This document shows positions 9,480-52,210 of a DNA stretch of 64,000 bases, piece by piece. The notes below the pieces were generated by a model. The model was not told the origin of the DNA. It was given only the letters and a program-made list of their open reading frames with translations, and made no database searches. The DNA lies in assembly GCF_009753675.1 (NCBI RefSeq), contig NZ_WQLV01000019.1, positions 1-64,000 on the forward strand, read 5' to 3'. Source of the stretch: Parasedimentitalea huanghaiensis (GTDB lineage: Bacteria; Pseudomonadota; Alphaproteobacteria; Rhodobacterales; Rhodobacteraceae). Position numbers and translations under genes: made by a program. Within the stretch, counting starts at the first letter, position 1, and each line of letters starts with the position of its first letter.

Positions 9480-11375
9480 CTAGAAATCCTGCCAAAGGTC
9501 CTTCGCTGCGGATCCTTCGGACATTGCGGCTGCCACTGGGATAGCGGCGGCTGTATCCCAGCCATCCTCGCCGTGAGAAGTTGGACCAGAAATTGAGTTC
9601 GTCGGAGCCGCTGTTGCAAGTATTGGTGTACTTGATCCACCAGTGATCGTGAAGCGGGACACCAACCCAGACAGTTTGGTGGCGTCGGTATTCAGCAAAT
9701 GGCCTGCGGCGGTCGCCTGTTCCACCATTGCAGCATTTTGCTGCGTTACTTGATCCAATTGGCTAACACCCATGTTGATTTCACCAAGACCTGTCGATTG
9801 TTCACTGGCCCCTTCGGCAATGCCGGAAATCTGTTGGGAAATATCCGTAACACGCTGAACAATACGGTCCAGTGCACCGCCGGCCTTGCCGACAAGGTCT
9901 ACACCTCGCTCAACCTGCTGCGAGGAGTTTCCAATCAGGGTTTTGATTTCAGTGGCCGCATCCGAGGACCGCTGGGCCAGAGCACGCACTTCGGAGGCGA
10001 CAACAGCAAAGCCACGGCCTGCTTCGCCCGCACGCGCGGCCTCAACACCGGCGTTGAGAGCCAGAAGATTGGTCTGGAAAGCGATATCATCAATGACCCC
10101 GATGATCTGCGAAATGTGATGGGCGGAATTTTCGATCTCGTGCATCGCTTCGACGGCATTTTTCACCACAGTTCCGCTGTCTTGTGCTTCGCTTCTGGCT
10201 TCCTGCATCAAGTTTTCAACACTTCTGGCACCTTCAGCAGCTGACCGTACGCTAGCCGTCATTTCTTCCAGCGCAGCAGCGGTTTCTTCCAGTGTCGCAG
10301 CTTGGCTTTCGGTGCGGTGTGATAGGTCATCAGACGCCTGACTAATCTCATTCGCACCGCTGCGGATGCTCTCAGAGGCTTCAATCACTTGGACCACTGT
10401 ACCGTTCAATGTCTCCAAGGTTTGGTTGAAATCAAGCCTCAGCTGTTCGTAACCTTCGGGGAATGTTTCGGTGATTTGCCCTGTGAGATCGCCGTCGGAC
10501 AATGCAGATAGGCGCTGGTTTAAGGTTTCGACCACACCACGTCTTTCTTGATCTCGGGCTTCCTGGCCACGTTCCATTTCACGTTGTTTCTGAAGTGATT
10601 GGCGGAACACTTCAACTGTCTGGGCCATCAACCCGATTTCGCTACGTACCTGCGTTGCCGGAACTTCCGTTTCCGTTTCCCCGTTCACCATTCCCTGCAT
10701 GCGAACCTGCAATGCACCCAAGGGGGCGGTTACGCTGCGGGCGATTACATAGCCTGCTCCTGCAAGCAGCAGGAGACAAACAGCCATTGTGGCCATTGCG
10801 GCCTTGCGCATCCAGCTAAGACTGGCTTCGATATCAGAGACATAAGAGCCGGTTCCAATAATCCATCCCCAGGGTTTATACAGCTGTACATAGCCAATTT
10901 TCTGCTCAGGCTGATCTGCATTTGGTTTTTGGAACCAGTATCGTACTGCCCCAGCACCAGCCTGGCTTTGGGCCACCTTGTTCATCTCTTCGAAGATCTT
11001 CAAACCATTGATGTCTTCCAGATCGGCTTTGTTGGTTCCTTCCCATTCAGGCTTGAATGGGTGCGCCTGCACGATATTGTCCACATCGTTGACGAAAAAA
11101 TACCCGGCAGTTCCAAACCGCAGACTGTTCAACTGATCATGGGCAATTTTCTTGGCATCATCACGCGACAGTTCTCCTGATTCAACACGCGCTTCAAGGG
11201 CAGTCAAAAGGCTGATGGCGGTATCAGTGGCATGGTGTAACTCGTTTTCACGCATCGAGTAGGCGTTGTCGACTGCGCGAGACAGTAGAATAACGGTGAG
11301 GAAGGCGATCATAATCAGCGAGAGGGCAATCACCGCATAGATGCGGGTGGATAGGCGATAAAGTGCAGCAGGCAT
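9480..11375 (-). CDS. Methyl-accepting chemotaxis protein with single Cache sensor
   Basis: Chemoreceptor of about 631 aa. I chose the ATG at 11375 because AAAGGA lies 11 bases upstream; the frame is open for 14 more codons. A membrane helix near residues 12-32 is followed by an sCache_2-type periplasmic domain with the pattern [19 protein letters not shown], a second helix, a HAMP linker and the signalling coiled coil. The tail reads DLWQDF, again an xWxxF tether for CheR/CheB. The signalling part is nearly the same as in the two receptors at 1-3751, while the sensor differs. sCache receptors often sense organic acids, but the ligand here is unknown. Confidence 0.95.
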
Positions 11376-15191: not shown

Positions 15192-16001
15192 CTAAACCCG
15201 CCAGCGCAATAGTCGGCGTTCAATCATTCCGATGCAAATGCTCAGCGTGACACCTAGTATCGACAAGATTGTGACCCCAGCAAACAGTCGCTCCAGATCG
15301 TACAGTGATCCGGCCTCGAGGATATAGGCACCGATGCCGTACTCGGCACCCAGCATTTCAGCCGCGACCAGTAGGATGATGGCAATTGCCAGACTGATCC
15401 GCAGCCCGGACAGGATGCCGGGCATGGCGCCGGGCAGCACGATCTTGCGGACAATCGACCACCAGCTGAGGTTAAAGCTTTGCCCCATGCGGATCAGCCC
15501 GCGGTCGACATTGTCCACTGCGCCATAGGTGGCCACCACCGTGGGGGTGAAAGTGCCAAAGGCGATAAGCGCGTATTTGGATCCTTCGTCGATGCCAAAC
15601 CAGATCACAAACAGGGGTAGCAGTGCGATTTTGGGGATTGGGAACAGGGCGGCCACCAGAGGCACTAACCCGGCGCGGACATAAGAGAACAACCCGATCA
15701 TCACACCAACCGCGATACCGACGCTGGCCCCCAGTGCGGCGCCGACGATAAGCCGAGATAGCGACACACTCAGATGTTTCCACAGCAAACCTGTGCTGTA
15801 GAGCTCGCCAAAGGTTTTGAGCACATCCGAGGGTTTGGGTAGGGTCAGTGCCGAAATCCACCCTTGTCGGGTCCCCATCTCGGCCAGCGTGATCAGTACG
15901 ACAAAGACCACCAAGCCAACCCAACGGCGCGAGGAGGGGGCAAAGCCGCCGCCACGAAAAGGGACAGGGCGAGTTTCGCCGGAGTTTGTGAGATCAGACA
16001 T
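15192..16001 (-). CDS. ABC transporter permease, SsuC/TauC family
   Basis: Inner-membrane permease of 269 aa with about six helices and the conserved cytoplasmic loop (around LPGAMPGILSGLRISL, residues 190-205) that docks on the ATPase. The family imports sulfonates, nitrate, taurine or pyrimidine precursors. Its ATG at 16001 overlaps the stop of the ATPase gene by 8 bases, so translation is likely coupled. It is the last gene of a leftward binding protein-ATPase-permease unit. Confidence 0.92.
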   Translation of the reverse strand: MSDLTNSGETRPVPFRGGGFAPSSRRWVGLVVFVVLITLAEMGTRQGWISALTLPKPSDVLKTFGELYSTGLLWKHLSVSLSRLIVGAALGASVGIAVGVMIGLFSYVRAGLVPLVAALFPIPKIALLPLFVIWFGIDEGSKYALIAFGTFTPTVVATYGAVDNVDRGLIRMGQSFNLSWWSIVRKIVLPGAMPGILSGLRISLAIAIILLVAAEMLGAEYGIGAYILEAGSLYDLERLFAGVTILSILGVTLSICIGMIERRLLRWRV

Positions 16002-16761
16002 TGATCAGCTCCGCATCTGCTGCCTGCGCTTCTTCGCGCATCAGCTGCCACAGGTATTTTTGTTTCTCTTCCAGCTCGGCATTGCCCAGCCCACGTTGTT
16101 CCAGTGGTTGGTCCAAGTGCACAATCTCGCGGATCTCTCCGGGGCGGCGGGACATAACGACAATGGAGTGGCCCAGCCGCACGGCCTCGGCCAGATTGTG
16201 GGTCACGTAGACGGCCGTAAATGGCGTGCGGGTCCAGAGGTTGACCAGATCATCCATCAGTAATTCACGGGTTTGGCTATCGAGCGCAGACAGGGGTTCG
16301 TCCATCAGCATCACAGCTGGGTTCACAGCCAGTGCGCGTGCGATTGCCACTCGTTGCTTCATGCCGCCGGACAGTTGCTTGGGCAGGGCCTCGGCAAAAT
16401 CAGTCAGCTTGGTGCGGGCTAGAACGTTCTGGATGATGTCATCGGCGTCTTGGATGCGAATGCCGTGATCCTCTAGTACCAATGAGATATTGCCGTGCAC
16501 AGTGCGCCAGGGCAGCAGGGCAAAGTCCTGAAAGACATAGGTTAGCGGGTTCAGGCAATCGGCGGGTGGAGTGCCGACCTGCAAGATCTCACCCGCGCTG
16601 GGCTGTTCCAGCCCGCCAATCAATCGCAAAAGAGTGGATTTTCCGCAACCCGATGGGCCGACGATACAGACGATTTTGCCGGATGGGATTTCAAGCGAAA
16701 TGTCCCGCAAGACTTCGGTTTGGTCATAGCGGTGGCTGACGCCTGATAGGCGGATGTCCAT
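15994..16761 (-). CDS. ABC transporter ATP-binding protein, SsuB/TauB family
   Basis: Peripheral ATPase of the importer, 255 aa from the ATG at 16761 (AGGA 9 bases before it; a longer frame starts at 16845 within the repeat element and is unlikely). Walker A is VGPSGCGKST, the Q-loop is YVFQDFALLPW, the signature is LSGGMKQR, Walker B is VMLMDEPLSALD, and the H-loop is VYVTHN. All motifs are intact. It is placed between the binding-protein and permease genes, with a structured repeat in the gap before it. Confidence 0.93.
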   Translation of the reverse strand: MDIRLSGVSHRYDQTEVLRDISLEIPSGKIVCIVGPSGCGKSTLLRLIGGLEQPSAGEILQVGTPPADCLNPLTYVFQDFALLPWRTVHGNISLVLEDHGIRIQDADDIIQNVLARTKLTDFAEALPKQLSGGMKQRVAIARALAVNPAVMLMDEPLSALDSQTRELLMDDLVNLWTRTPFTAVYVTHNLAEAVRLGHSIVVMSRRPGEIREIVHLDQPLEQRGLGNAELEEKQKYLWQLMREEAQAADAELINV

Positions 16762-16821
16762 GGGGTGCTGTCCTGTGGGGGTTGGATCTGAAAACGCCCT
16801 GAGACTCTGGCTGGTAGGGCG

Positions 16822-16895
16822 GCGTTTGACCTTGAGGAGGTGCAAAGCGCCTTCCCGTGCGGAAAGTCAGGCGCTGCCCGGCCTGTCAGCCGGGC
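16822..16895. repeat. Structured intergenic repeat, copy 1
   Basis: A 74-base element with a second copy at 52138-52210. On the plus strand it has an outer stem (16822-16830 with 16866-16874), an inner hairpin of GGAGGTGC-AAA-GCGCCTTCC type (about 16832-16852), and a 3' hairpin GCCCGGC/GCCGGGC (16876-16882 with 16889-16895). It lies between the binding-protein gene and the ATPase gene of the importer, 15 bases after the binding-protein stop. In that place it may stabilise or uncouple the binding-protein part of the mRNA, as REP elements do between malE and malF in Escherichia coli. Confidence 0.8.
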
Positions 16896-16910: not shown

Positions 16911-17930
16911 TTAGCCCAGTGTCTTGACGTAGCTGCTGTCCACAACTGTATCCAGCGTGATGTCACCATCAACCAGGCCTTCGGACTGGAACCAGCTTAG
17001 CTGATCCTGTAGCGATGCGGTGTTCATCGCGGCGCCTTCGTTCAGGCGCATGGTGCCATTGATGATCGACTTGGCGGCCTTTTCACGTGGTTTATCGGCG
17101 TAGACATATTTATGGATCAAATCGACCATCTCGTTTACGCCGTCATCGCCGTGGGCACGGTCAATCATGGTGGAGTTGTAATCTGCGACACCCTTGGAAA
17201 AGCCAGCCAGAAAATCACCAGTCATGCCACGTTCATCAGTAGCGTTTTTGGCCGAGGTGAACACGGTGGTAACCTGATAGTCGGGCAGAACATCGGACAC
17301 GTTGCCGATGATGTGGACGGCACCGGAACCGGCCAGCGGTTTTGCGATATGCGGGACAATTGACCATGCATCAATCTGGCCCGATTTCAGCGCGCCTATG
17401 ATGGCGCCGACCTTTTGCAGCGGTTTGAAAGACATCGAGATGCCTTCTTTTTGCGCCAGCTTAGAGCCCATGTAGTGGAACGAGGAACCGGCGCTGGTGA
17501 TGCCATAGCTTTTGCCATCCAGCATAGCAGGACTGGTTACGCCGGTCTGGAATGCGGCGTCTGAGACCAGGTATTTCTGACCGTCGATGCCTGCTTCCTC
17601 GGACAGTGCGCCACCGATGATCTTGATCGCGCCCTTATCGGCCAGCGACACCAGACCGCCAGACATGGCTGTCACGGCGTAGTCGACATCACCCGAGGCG
17701 ATCGCAACGGCCATTGGTGTGGCCGCCTGAAAGAACTTCAGCTCGACATCCAAACCGGCCTCTTTGAAATAATCACGCTGGAGCGCGATGAAGCTGGCGG
17801 AATGGCTGGTAAAGCGCAGCGCGCCAACCCTGATCTTGCGACCCTGCGACAGTGCTGGAGTGGAAAGACCGGCGGCAGCAACAGTGCCGCCCATCAGAGC
17901 CAGTGCCTTGCGGCGGTTCAAAGTTGTCAT
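16911..17930 (-). CDS. ABC transporter substrate-binding protein, NMT1/SsuA-like, Tat-type signal
   Basis: Periplasmic binding protein of 339 aa. The N-terminus MTTLNRRKALALMGG contains a twin-arginine, and the signal ends near PALSQ, so export by the Tat route is likely. The mature part has the NMT1/THI5 pattern: residues ASGDVDYAV near 75 and a hinge segment GKSYGITSAGSS near 145. The ATG at 17930 is preceded by GAGAGGG. First gene of the importer operon, followed by a hairpin repeat and the ATPase. No nearby gene points to the substrate (aliphatic sulfonate, pyrimidine and nitrate are all possible in this family). Confidence 0.87.
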   Translation of the reverse strand: MTTLNRRKALALMGGTVAAAGLSTPALSQGRKIRVGALRFTSHSASFIALQRDYFKEAGLDVELKFFQAATPMAVAIASGDVDYAVTAMSGGLVSLADKGAIKIIGGALSEEAGIDGQKYLVSDAAFQTGVTSPAMLDGKSYGITSAGSSFHYMGSKLAQKEGISMSFKPLQKVGAIIGALKSGQIDAWSIVPHIAKPLAGSGAVHIIGNVSDVLPDYQVTTVFTSAKNATDERGMTGDFLAGFSKGVADYNSTMIDRAHGDDGVNEMVDLIHKYVYADKPREKAAKSIINGTMRLNEGAAMNTASLQDQLSWFQSEGLVDGDITLDTVVDSSYVKTLG

Positions 17931-18184
17931 GGTATCCCTCTCAAAATGCACATCCATATGCCGCGACTACACTTTGGGCCGGGCTCGGCAATTAGTGCTT
18001 ATTTCTCAACCGCTCCGGTCTTGGAGTCAATCGCTGCGCATAGGGTTGATGCACTCGATCAGATAAATTTGTTACAGCACATAGAGTTGTGCGCATCTCG
18101 CACTCGGAAGGGCGAAATGCATACAGTATCAGGTTGAGTCCCTGATGTTTGGGACGAAGCTGCGTTGTGCGACGAAAATCTGGT

Positions 18185-38018: not shown

Positions 38019-38303
38019 AAGAGCAGCTGCAAGGTCGTTCGAAAAGGGCTGTTTGGCATAGGATAGCATCTCTACCGCTAACAATAGGCCGTTGAGCAAT
38101 ATAGTTCGATGGCTAGCAATCAAATACTCTGAATTGGCGGTGTTACTTCCACAGAGCAAAGCATTTATTGTTGGAAGGCGATAGGGCTCTTGTTTGCGGG
38201 GCAAGGGGCGCGCAGCATCACTGCCATCGCCTGAGCTTCCCCCGGGAAGAACCTCCATACCTTCCCAAGGTCTGGCGCTGGTGCTGCAGGTTTGTCGAAA
38301 AGG

Positions 38304-48596: not shown

Positions 48597-51500
48597 ATGA
48601 CCCAAACTCCTCGATTCATTCACCTGCGCTCCCACACCGAATACTCCCTTCTAGAGGGGGCGTTGCGGCTAAAAAAGCTGCCTGATTTGTGCAAAAAGCA
48701 TGACATGCCCGCGATTGCGGTGACGGACAGTAACAACCTGTTTTCGGCGTTGGAATTTTCCGTTTCAGCCAGTGGTGCTGGTGTGCAGCCAATCATTGGC
48801 TGCCAGATGGATTTGCGGTTTGCCGAACCCGCACCGGGTGAGCGGCCCCGGCCTCCTGCGTCTATGGTGCTCTTGGCGCAGAACGAGACGGGTTATGAGC
48901 ATCTGATGAAGCTGAACTCTTGCCTGTATATGCGGCAGGGGAGCGAGTTACCCTATGTGACGCTGGATGAACTGGAGGTGAATTCCGGTGGTGTCATCTG
49001 TCTAACCGGTGGACCAAACGGCCCTGTGGGGCAGCTGTTGCAGATGGGACAGCGGCCCGCCGCGCAAGAGCTGATGGACCGGCTCAAGGCGATATTCCCT
49101 GACCGGCTGTATGTGGAGCTGCAACGCCATCCGGGTGAAGGTGGCCAGCCCGAAGCGGAGAAACTGACCGAACGTGGCCATGTGGAAATGGCCTATGCGA
49201 TGGATCTGCCGCTGGTCGCGACCAATGATGTCTATTTCCCCAATACCGAGATGTACGAAGCCCATGATGCGATGATCTGTATAGCCGAGGGCGCCTATGT
49301 TGATCAGGTCGAAGGACGGCGCAGGCTGACTGCGCAGCATTACTTCAAGAGCCAAGAGGAAATGGTCACGCTGTTTGCCGACCTGCCCGAAGCAATTGAG
49401 AACACAGTTGAGATAGCCAAGCGCTGTGCCTTTAAGGCCTATTTACGTGATCCGATCCTGCCCAAGTTTGCCGATGACGAGGTTGCTGAACTGCGTCGTA
49501 TCGCCAACGAAGGCCTGCAAAAGCGCCTCTCAGTGATCCCGCACGCGGTGACGGTTGAGGAATACCAAAAACGGCTCGATTTCGAGCTGGATATCATCGA
49601 AGGCATGGGATTCCCCGGTTACTTTCTAATCGTTGCCGATTTTATTCAGTGGGCCAAGGATCACGACATTCCCGTGGGGCCGGGGCGCGGTTCGGGTGCG
49701 GGGTCGCTGGTGGCCTATGCGCTGACGATTACCGACCTTGACCCGCTGCGCTATTCGCTGCTGTTCGAACGCTTCCTAAACCCAGAACGGGTATCTATGC
49801 CCGACTTCGACATCGACTTTTGCATGGATCGCCGTGAAGAGGTGATCAAATACGTGCAAGAGAAGTACGGTCGCGACAAGGTTGGGCAGATCATCACCTT
49901 TGGTGCGCTGCTGTCCAAGGCGGCGGTGCGCGACATGGGGCGGGTGCTACAGATGCCCTATGGCCAAGTGGACCGGCTGTCCAAGCTGATCCCGGTTGAA
50001 GGCGTCAAGCCGATGTCCATCGTGGACAGCCTGAAGGAAGAGCCGCGCTTGCGAGAAGAGGCCCGCAACGAAGAGGTTGTGGACCGGCTGCTGAAGTACG
50101 GCATGCAGGTCGAAGGTCTGTTGCGCTCTGCTGGTACTCACGCGGCGGGGGTAGTGATTGGCGACCGGCCGCTGGATGCGCTGGTGCCGCTGTACCGCGA
50201 TCCGCGATCCGACATGCCGGCGACCCAGTTTAACATGAAATGGGTGGAACAGGCCGGGCTGGTCAAGTTTGACTTTTTGGGTCTGAAAACCCTGACCGTG
50301 ATTCAAAGTGCGGTGGATTTGATCAAGGGCGAGGGGCGTGATCTGCATATTGCCGCTGATGGCACCCAGCTGTATGATCCACCCGAAGGCGCGGTGAACG
50401 AAATCAACGCCATCCCGTTGGATGATATCCCCACCTATAAGCTTTATGCAGCCGCTAAAACGGTGGCGGTATTCCAGGTGGAATCCAGCGGTATGATGGA
50501 TGCGCTAAAGCGGATGAAGCCCAACTGTATCGAGGACATCGTGGCGCTGGTGGCGCTATATCGTCCTGGCCCGATGGAAAACATCCCGACCTATTGTGAG
50601 GTCAAGAACGGGCTGAAAGAGATCACCTCGGTTCACCCGCTGATCGACCACCTGCTGGCCGAAACCCAAGGTATCATCATCTACCAGGAACAGGTGATGC
50701 AGATTGCCCAGGTGATGGCGGGTTATAGCCTTGGCGGGGCTGACCTGTTGCGCCGTGCGATGGGTAAGAAGATCAAAGAGGCGATGGACGCTGAACGTCC
50801 GAAGTTTGAAAAGGGCGCGGCGGCAAATGGCGTGCCGCCCAAAAAGGCCTCGGAAGTGTTCGACCTGTTGGAAAAATTCGCCAACTACGGGTTCAACAAA
50901 TCCCACGCGGCGGCATATGCAGTGGTGTCCTACCAGACCGGCTGGCTCAAGGCGAACCACCCGGTGGAGTTCATGGGCGGGGTGATGAACTGCGATATTC
51001 ACCTGACCGATAAGCTGGCGGTGTTTTTCGAAGAGGTGAAAAAGGGGCTGGGTCTGCCCTATATTCCGCCCTGCGTGAACCGCTCGGAGGCGATGTTCAA
51101 CGTAATCGATGGGGTGTTGATCTACGCGCTGGGCGCGTTGAAAAACGTCGGCGTTGAGGCGATGAAGCTGGTGACCGATGCGCGTCGTGCCTATGGCGAG
51201 GATCGACCCTTTGCGACCCTGTATGACTTTGCCCGCAGGGTGGATTTGAAAAAAGTAGGCAAGCGGCCATTGGAAATGCTGGCACGGGCTGGGGCCTTTG
51301 ACCAGCTGGACCCTAACCGCCGCCGGGTGTTTGACAGCTTGGAACCCTTGGTCAGCTACTCGAATGCGATCCATGAGCAGAAGAATTCAAACCAGGTATC
51401 GCTGTTTGGCGATGCGGGTGAGGATCTGCCCGAACCGCGTATGTCCGGCACACCGGATTGGTTGCCTGCTGAACGGTTGAGCGAAGAGTTCAAGGCGATT

Positions 51501-52109
51501 GGCTTTTATCTGTCTGGCCACCCGTTGGATGACTACATGCCCGCGTTGAAACGCAAAGGCGTGATGACGCTGGATGAGGTTCTTGAAAAGGCCAAGCGTG
51601 GGCCGTTTCTAGCCAAGATGGCGGGGGTTGTCGCTGGATGTCAGGAGCGTAAATCGGCGCGTGGCAACCGCTTTGCCTTTGCCCAACTATCGGATACGAC
51701 TGGCGGGTTTGAGATTACGCTATTTTCCGAAGCGCTAGAGAAAAGCCGCGAACATCTGGTGACCGGTGGCAAGGTTGTGCTGAGCGCCGAGGCGACGGTG
51801 GAAGCTGACCAGCTGAAACTGCTGGCGCGATCTGTCGGCCCCATTGACGCTGCTGTGGCTGATGCCGGTAATAGTAGTCTGCGGGTTTATGTGACCGAAC
51901 CTGCCGCAGTGGCGACCGTGGCGACGGTGCTGGAAGAGGCCCGCGCTGCGGCCAAGAACGCCAGCCGTGGCGAGGTGCTGATGTACCTGCGTGACTCTAC
52001 TTTGCCAGGGGATGTGGAACTGGATTTGGGGCAGTACTTCCCGATCAATCCGCAGATCAAAGGTGCGATTAAATCGCTTGATGGCGTGGAGGATGTTGAA
52101 GAGATTTAG
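48597..52109 (+). CDS. dnaE: DNA polymerase III alpha subunit
   Basis: The replicative polymerase subunit, 1170 aa. N-terminal PHP domain (HLRSHTEYSLLEG, 9-21), then the polymerase palm with the catalytic aspartates D405 and D407 in MPDFDIDFCMD, the GPGRGSGAGSLVAY motif before it, and the fingers (LRRAMGKKI; NYGFNKSHAAAY). A helix-hairpin-helix and an OB domain (LAKMAGVVAGCQERKSARG) follow. Length fits DnaE1, not the shorter DnaE2/ImuC. Ribosome site is weak. A structured repeat follows 28 bases after the stop. Confidence 0.97.
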   Translation: MTQTPRFIHLRSHTEYSLLEGALRLKKLPDLCKKHDMPAIAVTDSNNLFSALEFSVSASGAGVQPIIGCQMDLRFAEPAPGERPRPPASMVLLAQNETGYEHLMKLNSCLYMRQGSELPYVTLDELEVNSGGVICLTGGPNGPVGQLLQMGQRPAAQELMDRLKAIFPDRLYVELQRHPGEGGQPEAEKLTERGHVEMAYAMDLPLVATNDVYFPNTEMYEAHDAMICIAEGAYVDQVEGRRRLTAQHYFKSQEEMVTLFADLPEAIENTVEIAKRCAFKAYLRDPILPKFADDEVAELRRIANEGLQKRLSVIPHAVTVEEYQKRLDFELDIIEGMGFPGYFLIVADFIQWAKDHDIPVGPGRGSGAGSLVAYALTITDLDPLRYSLLFERFLNPERVSMPDFDIDFCMDRREEVIKYVQEKYGRDKVGQIITFGALLSKAAVRDMGRVLQMPYGQVDRLSKLIPVEGVKPMSIVDSLKEEPRLREEARNEEVVDRLLKYGMQVEGLLRSAGTHAAGVVIGDRPLDALVPLYRDPRSDMPATQFNMKWVEQAGLVKFDFLGLKTLTVIQSAVDLIKGEGRDLHIAADGTQLYDPPEGAVNEINAIPLDDIPTYKLYAAAKTVAVFQVESSGMMDALKRMKPNCIEDIVALVALYRPGPMENIPTYCEVKNGLKEITSVHPLIDHLLAETQGIIIYQEQVMQIAQVMAGYSLGGADLLRRAMGKKIKEAMDAERPKFEKGAAANGVPPKKASEVFDLLEKFANYGFNKSHAAAYAVVSYQTGWLKANHPVEFMGGVMNCDIHLTDKLAVFFEEVKKGLGLPYIPPCVNRSEAMFNVIDGVLIYALGALKNVGVEAMKLVTDARRAYGEDRPFATLYDFARRVDLKKVGKRPLEMLARAGAFDQLDPNRRRVFDSLEPLVSYSNAIHEQKNSNQVSLFGDAGEDLPEPRMSGTPDWLPAERLSEEFKAIGFYLSGHPLDDYMPALKRKGVMTLDEVLEKAKRGPFLAKMAGVVAGCQERKSARGNRFAFAQLSDTTGGFEITLFSEALEKSREHLVTGGKVVLSAEATVEADQLKLLARSVGPIDAAVADAGNSSLRVYVTEPAAVATVATVLEEARAAAKNASRGEVLMYLRDSTLPGDVELDLGQYFPINPQIKGAIKSLDGVEDVEEI

Positions 52110-52137
52110 GCTGGGGGGCTTCGTTCAACTGAGGGAC

Positions 52138-52210
52138 GTGCCTGACCTTGGGGAGGTGCAAAGCGCCTTCCCGGGGGGGGGAGGTCAGGCGCGGCCCGGC
52201 GGTGCCGGGC
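52138..52210. repeat. Structured intergenic repeat, copy 2
   Basis: Second copy of the element at 16822-16895. A 12-bp outer stem (52138-52149 with 52181-52192), a 10-bp inner hairpin with AAA loop (52150-52159 with 52163-52172), a run of nine G, and the 3' hairpin GCCCGGC/GCCGGGC (52194-52200 with 52204-52210). Differences from copy 1 keep the pairing. Here it follows dnaE and may mark its transcript end. Confidence 0.8.

Follow-up and report, generated by a model that had tools for sequence, protein, structure and literature searches.

The DNA analysed here, a stretch of 64,000 nucleotides from Parasedimentitalea huanghaiensis (the window), carries two copies of an intergenic element of ∼80 nt that belongs to a structured, multi-copy family. 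We consider that the element is probably a REP/MITE-like, non-autonomous dispersed DNA repeat of Rhodobacteraceae/Roseobacteraceae, spread via a folded single strand; the family is apparently uncatalogued. Spread of this kind would explain the copy number, the random orientation, the strand-specific fold, the modular inserts and the decay of the copies.

Two copies of the element in the window

The initial annotation described two copies, at 16822-16895 and 52138-52210, sharing an outer stem, an AAA-loop hairpin and an identical GCCCGGC/GCCGGGC 3' hairpin with the loops CTGTCA and GGT. All of these parts are present. The copies had been located correctly, and their limits can be drawn more sharply, as listed here together with the adjoining genes.

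16816..16895, + strand: element copy A, whole unit (AGGGC ... GCCGGGC), antisense to the surrounding operon; 84.8 bits with covariance model R1
16817..16831, + strand: copy A, outer stem, 5' arm (GGGC + GGCGTTTGACC)
16836..16854, + strand: copy A, AAA-loop hairpin (GGAGGTGC-AAA-GCGCCTTC)
16865..16879, + strand: copy A, outer stem, 3' arm (AGTCAGGCGC + TGCCC)
16876..16895, + strand: copy A, 3' hairpin (GCCCGGC-CTGTCA-GCCGGGC)
52132..52210, + strand: element copy B, whole unit, 22 nt past the stop codon of the dnaE-like gene and sense to it; 83.2 bits
52138..52149, + strand: copy B, outer stem, 5' arm (GTGCCTGACCTT)
52150..52172, + strand: copy B, AAA-loop hairpin (GGGGAGGTGC-AAA-GCGCCTTCCC)
52182..52192, + strand: copy B, outer stem, 3' arm (AGGTCAGGCGC)
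52194..52210, + strand: copy B, 3' hairpin (GCCCGGC-GGT-GCCGGGC)
16911..17957, - strand: ABC-transporter substrate-binding protein gene (Pfam NMT1), stop codon 15 nt from copy A
15994..16758, - strand: ABC-transporter ATPase gene, next in the same operon, downstream of copy A
48597..52109, + strand: gene directly upstream of copy B, which from general knowledge of the protein we take to be dnaE-like

A 21-base core, GGAGGTGCAAAGCGCCTTCCC, occurs exactly twice in the window, against an expectation of 0.00, and the predicted folding energies of the two copies lie well below those of dinucleotide shuffles (z of -3.2 and -4.6). The 5' arm of the 3' hairpin in copy A is able to pair instead with the 5' GGGC. 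The C-G/T-G exchanges in the outer stem, from which the initial annotation argued that pairing is preserved, are as it described, but in copy A one pair is lost to a C-A mismatch where GACC faces GGTC in this stem. The two copies alone are therefore weak evidence of selection on structure.

The element belongs to a family found mostly in Rhodobacterales

What had been noted as a second copy 35 kb away is indeed there, although this understates the number: a BLAST search with copy A of its own genome (4.86 Mb, 40 contigs) gave ∼25 copies, and a covariance model (R1) built from 19 BLAST-found copies gave ∼35, with reverse-strand matches at the same places set aside. The same model found 29–56 copies in each of seven congeners and 1–12 in many other genera of the family, the carriers being 24 of the 37 sampled genomes of the family, own genome included. 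Outside the family, none of 141 sampled alphaproteobacteria had the element at an E-value of 1e-7. A pattern scan of named genomes likewise returned mostly Rhodobacterales (Leisingera, Ruegeria, Loktanella, Yoonia, Aliiroseovarius, Roseobacter, Litoreibacter and others). Roseobacters such as Phaeobacter, Leisingera, Ruegeria and their relatives are model marine bacteria, and many of them carry the family.

Sixty Phaeobacter, Leisingera and Tritonibacter plasmids also carry the element, which is unannotated in those of the records that were examined. No record in a phage collection matched it, so carriage by phages is unsupported. A high-scoring copy (L129, 86 bits) lies in a record labelled Nocardioides marinus DP1N28-1, an actinobacterium; the strain name series is common to Leisingera isolates, and this is probably a mislabelled or contaminated assembly.

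A covarying fold with two exclusive pairings

The unit consensus reads A-GGGC, GCGCCYGACCY, GGGTGGGTGC-RAA-GCGCCYTCCC, loop, RGGTCRGGCGC, GCCCGGC-loop-GCCGGGC. Its ends are sharp: the 5' side opens with A-GGGC, the A being present in 96% of copies, and the 3' side closes with the GGGC arm. In an alignment of 90 copies from many genera, 96.2% of the pair cells are paired, double-sided changes occur in 19 of the 28 pairs, and 252 cells have both partners changed, where shuffles average 61.5. This covariation signal is lost when the partners are slid by 1–3 columns. As judged from these alignments, the fold of the element is real. The initial annotation had named a lack of further copies, or copies that break the stems, as what would speak against it; the search gave instead many structured copies with the pairing quoted above. 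This supports a repeat family, one of the two options it had put forward, and we found nothing in support of the other, a separate small-RNA gene.

Indeed, although an RNA-like conserved fold with covariation is what a multi-copy family of small RNA genes would show, we regard such a family as highly improbable. The copies often fit closely between co-directional genes, which leaves hardly any space for promoters, and they have no U-run terminator. In agreement with the initial annotation, which could link the element to no named RNA family, no Rfam family scored above its gathering threshold; permissive matches to whalefall-1 (E 0.83) and CRISPR-DR9 were rejected as being at chance level. In an R. 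pomeroyi sRNA study, terms on repeats gave nothing on such a family.

The pairing is not confined to one arrangement. In several copies a change in the 5' GGNC is matched in the middle GNCC and in the 3' GGNC, giving a GGAC/GTCC/GGAC trio (L171, L144, L102, L168, L038, L045) or GGTC/GACC/GGTC (L033). These linked changes indicate that the middle strand has a choice of two partners and hence that two mutually exclusive folds are available; folding prediction places some copies in one of these and others in the alternative.

The loop before RGGTCRGGCGC is short and G-rich, and some copies have instead an extra hairpin of ∼30 nt. This module (GTTTTGCCGAAGGCAAACCTTCGGTTTGACGG) sits between the AAA hairpin and the 3' arm, in five copies of the own genome (L015, L020, L021, L022, L025) and in the orthologs L257, L269, L270 and L273, and may be present or absent at one site depending on the species. 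In L282 (genome G004) and L024 the element encloses a different palindrome (CCGTCCAGGAAATGATCC...GGATCATTTCCTGGACGG, whole or in part), perhaps a nested second repeat family.

Copies lie mostly behind stop codons, in either orientation

Gene context was taken from a simple, crude codon-based gene finder, with which the annotated plasmid records mostly agree. Among the 78 copies with genes on both sides, 30 are sense, 31 antisense, 17 convergent and none divergent. Divergent gaps make up 32% of the other gaps in the same loci, and the probability of 0 in 78 is near 1e-13. The orientation of the element relative to genes is random. Its distance to the facing stop codon has a median of 24 nt, against 200 nt under random placement, and a stop codon is no more than 20 nt away in 47% of copies, compared with 9% for the null. 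Most copies are found between co-directional genes, often with only 6–20 nt on either side. Copy A separates the substrate-binding protein gene of an ABC-transporter operon from its ATPase gene, and another copy sits between rfbB and rfbD. One annotated exception, L220:2501-2581, falls within the coding sequence of xdhC on a plasmid of Leisingera aquaemixtae.

The excess close to stop codons, the absence from divergent gaps and the two operon junctions just mentioned all favour a cis-acting mRNA element, a reading which we find possible but rather unlikely. Here the hairpins would shield the upstream message from 3' exonucleases, or would slow ribosomes as these reach the stop codon; neighbouring operon genes would be held at different levels, as for E. 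coli REP, and selection would keep the sites occupied. It has been described that 3' structures stabilise operon segments (PMC5927463) and, in PMC12306157, which draws on earlier work, that E. coli REPs at most 15 nt from a stop codon reduce translation. By analogy, REP-like effects of the element on translation or mRNA stability are plausible. Should it act in mRNA, the same ready-made structure would stand behind the stop codon at dozens of operon junctions in each genome, with an effect on gene ratios that is directly testable. However, part of this placement is already accounted for by promoter avoidance.

Strong GC-rich hairpins behind genes, together with the 17 convergent cases, could also suggest a transcription terminator, possibly a bidirectional one. 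We think this very unlikely, since TTTT occurs within ∼14 nt of the element in only 5 of 90 copies in the forward direction and 10 of 90 in the reverse, and since the element mostly lies, with the narrow margins given above, between genes that run in the same direction. We also considered whether the element inserts beside a 3' hairpin that is itself a common host terminator, and rejected this; in the loci examined, GCCCGGC/GCCGGGC hairpins are found almost only in elements.

Sites differ in occupancy and arrangement between species

Twelve own-genome sites were traced in the seven congeners through their joined flanks, and the regions were compared. The element was present in ∼41 of the 84 site-by-species combinations, even though the intergenic flanks were often unalignable, and where it was missing at the L036, L046 and L048 sites in other species another hairpin was found. 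That about half of the combinations are occupied, and that a missing element is often replaced by another hairpin, again favours an mRNA element. At other sites the element itself differed. It was reversed in G007 at the L044 site, and was of another subtype or in the opposite orientation at the L037 site (G004, G007) and the L034 site (G005). The 3' hairpin stood alone at the L040 site in G005 and at the L051 site in G002 and G003, and half an element was left at the L044 site in G001. No clean empty site was seen, the ‘empty’ ones retaining either part of the element (one half or one hairpin) or a different hairpin, and the orthologous comparisons gave no target-site duplication.

Orthologous copies are more alike (similarity 0.84) than other copies (0.77). 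No homogenisation within a genome was detected: copies from the same genome and copies from different genomes are both at 0.77, which gives no sign of current activity, and no near-identical recent copies stood out. In two strains of Leisingera aquaemixtae, copies in opposite orientations follow the same gene. We rejected a new insertion as the cause, for the reversal lies within a diverged block of ∼400 bp, which is explained by recombination or import of a diverged allele.

In L287, L288 and L290 (genomes G007, G002 and G001, respectively) another hairpin, CCGGTTTCTTGCAAGAAACCGG, is present at an own-genome element site. In L272 (G007, L038 site) the centre of the element is deleted, leaving a near-perfect palindrome with the right arm altered to match the left; from its sequence, this looks like palindrome correction or template switching.

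The fold belongs to one strand of the element, and resident copies appear to drift

Wobble positions are strongly asymmetric, with 191 G-T combinations, which pair on the forward strand only, against 30 A-C combinations, which pair on the reverse strand only; a covariance-model search may favour G-U over A-C, and the BLAST-found copies show the same overall direction. The bias is 36 against 15 in copies sense to their genes and 47 against 9, outside the wobble-consensus column, in antisense copies. As antisense copies share it, the folded strand belongs to the element and not to the host mRNA, which tells against a cis-acting mRNA element. Rare changes, in contrast, are nearly unbiased, with G-T and A-C numbering 22 and 17 in the BLAST-found copies and 26 and 20 in all copies.

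For changes at individual sites, positional orthologs at least 85% alike were compared. Single changes kept the pair in 33 cases and broke it in 76 (0.30, against 0.37 in a neutral simulation), and 18 cells were kept through double-sided change; these counts are non-independent, since one event may be shared by several species pairs, and the alignment was fitted to the model. Individual copies thus lose pairs at a rate near neutral, a second point against the mRNA element. The selection on structure suggested by the initial annotation consequently holds for the family, where pairing is kept and covaries, and does not extend to individual copies. The simplest reading of these sequence comparisons is that the fold was selected during spread of the element and that resident copies are now drifting. 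A strand-specific fold combined with stem breaking near chance fits selection during propagation better than selection on each host mRNA. Nearly unbiased rare changes and near-neutral stem breaking are also what is expected of inert copies derived from a once-selected source lineage.

Comparison with known repeat systems

The element resembles the REP, BIME and REPIN repeats of E. coli and Pseudomonas in being a dispersed extragenic foldback with a short unit, found in both orientations and occasionally as inverted doublets, often 1–20 nt from a stop codon, and with compensatory stem changes and alternative folds (REP features from PMC3116915, PMC3733652 and PMC12306157). A head-to-head pair of elements 25 nt apart in G003 recalls REP doublets. 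As for REPs and REPINs generally, the copies are extragenic, multiple, palindromic and near the 3' ends of genes. Unlike REP, the element is longer and asymmetric, with a bulged stem, an AAA hairpin and a separate 3' hairpin, and it has tens of copies rather than hundreds. Membership of the RAYT-driven REPs was rejected. At the 5' boundary, where the consensus is A-GGGC, the tag GTAG occurs in 2 of 90 copies and CGTC in none of 90, and the RAYT/TnpA domain PF01797 is absent from the own genome and from four of the eight genomes of the genus. The loci surrounding those Y1 genes that do exist contained no element.

ERIC, NEMIS, RPE and MITEs are likewise multi-copy structured intergenic DNA without coding capacity, and presumably moved in trans. 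ERIC, NEMIS and RPE are not known to share sequence with the element. The ends of the element, AGGGC and GGGC, are same-strand sequence and not the inverted repeats of a MITE. When the arm pattern was used to look for a longer, autonomous form enclosing an ORF, mostly known copies were returned. A survey of such families (PMC2267715) makes no mention of Rhodobacter, Roseobacter or Silicibacter, and the searches of papers open without subscription, one of them for the core sequence, gave no description of the family.

Integron attC sites share with the element a single-strand, strand-specific fold and a position behind stop codons. We give attC-like recombination sites almost no credence: the attC core GTTRRRY/RYYYAAC is near an end in few copies (3 of 85 right ends and 4 of 90 left ends), the element takes both orientations relative to genes, and no cassette arrays were seen.

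A possible mode of spread

In the dispersed-repeat reading that we prefer, one strand of the element would become single-stranded and fold, and would be recognised by its shape, by analogy with IS200/IS605 and REPIN systems, with the moving enzyme supplied in trans. Once in place, copies would drift. They would persist mainly behind stop codons, and it is mainly there that sites would be re-occupied, since such an insertion leaves promoters and coding sequence intact; a hairpin in this position may be tolerated by, or even useful to, the upstream mRNA, as for REPs. We infer both the mobility of the element and its effects on RNA. If the element is mobile, its mover should be findable, as it must act on shape and not on a REP tag.

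A more specific proposal, which we put forward as an unlikely one, is that of a RAYT-free foldback repeat moved or exchanged by its single-stranded shape, in which GGNC, GNCC and GGNC would be interdependent through two exclusive folds, and in which post-stop sites would be re-occupied by different hairpin cassettes across species. If true, such RAYT-free, shape-driven exchange would amount to a hairpin-exchange system aimed at operon junctions.

Other repeats in the window

Model R1 gave a very weak third match in the window, at 38201-38286 (26.7 bits, E 0.03), which may be a decayed copy or a chance match. The window also contains a direct repeat of 300 nt, 1551-1850 against 9646-9945, which is 71% identical and probably reflects paralogous genes.
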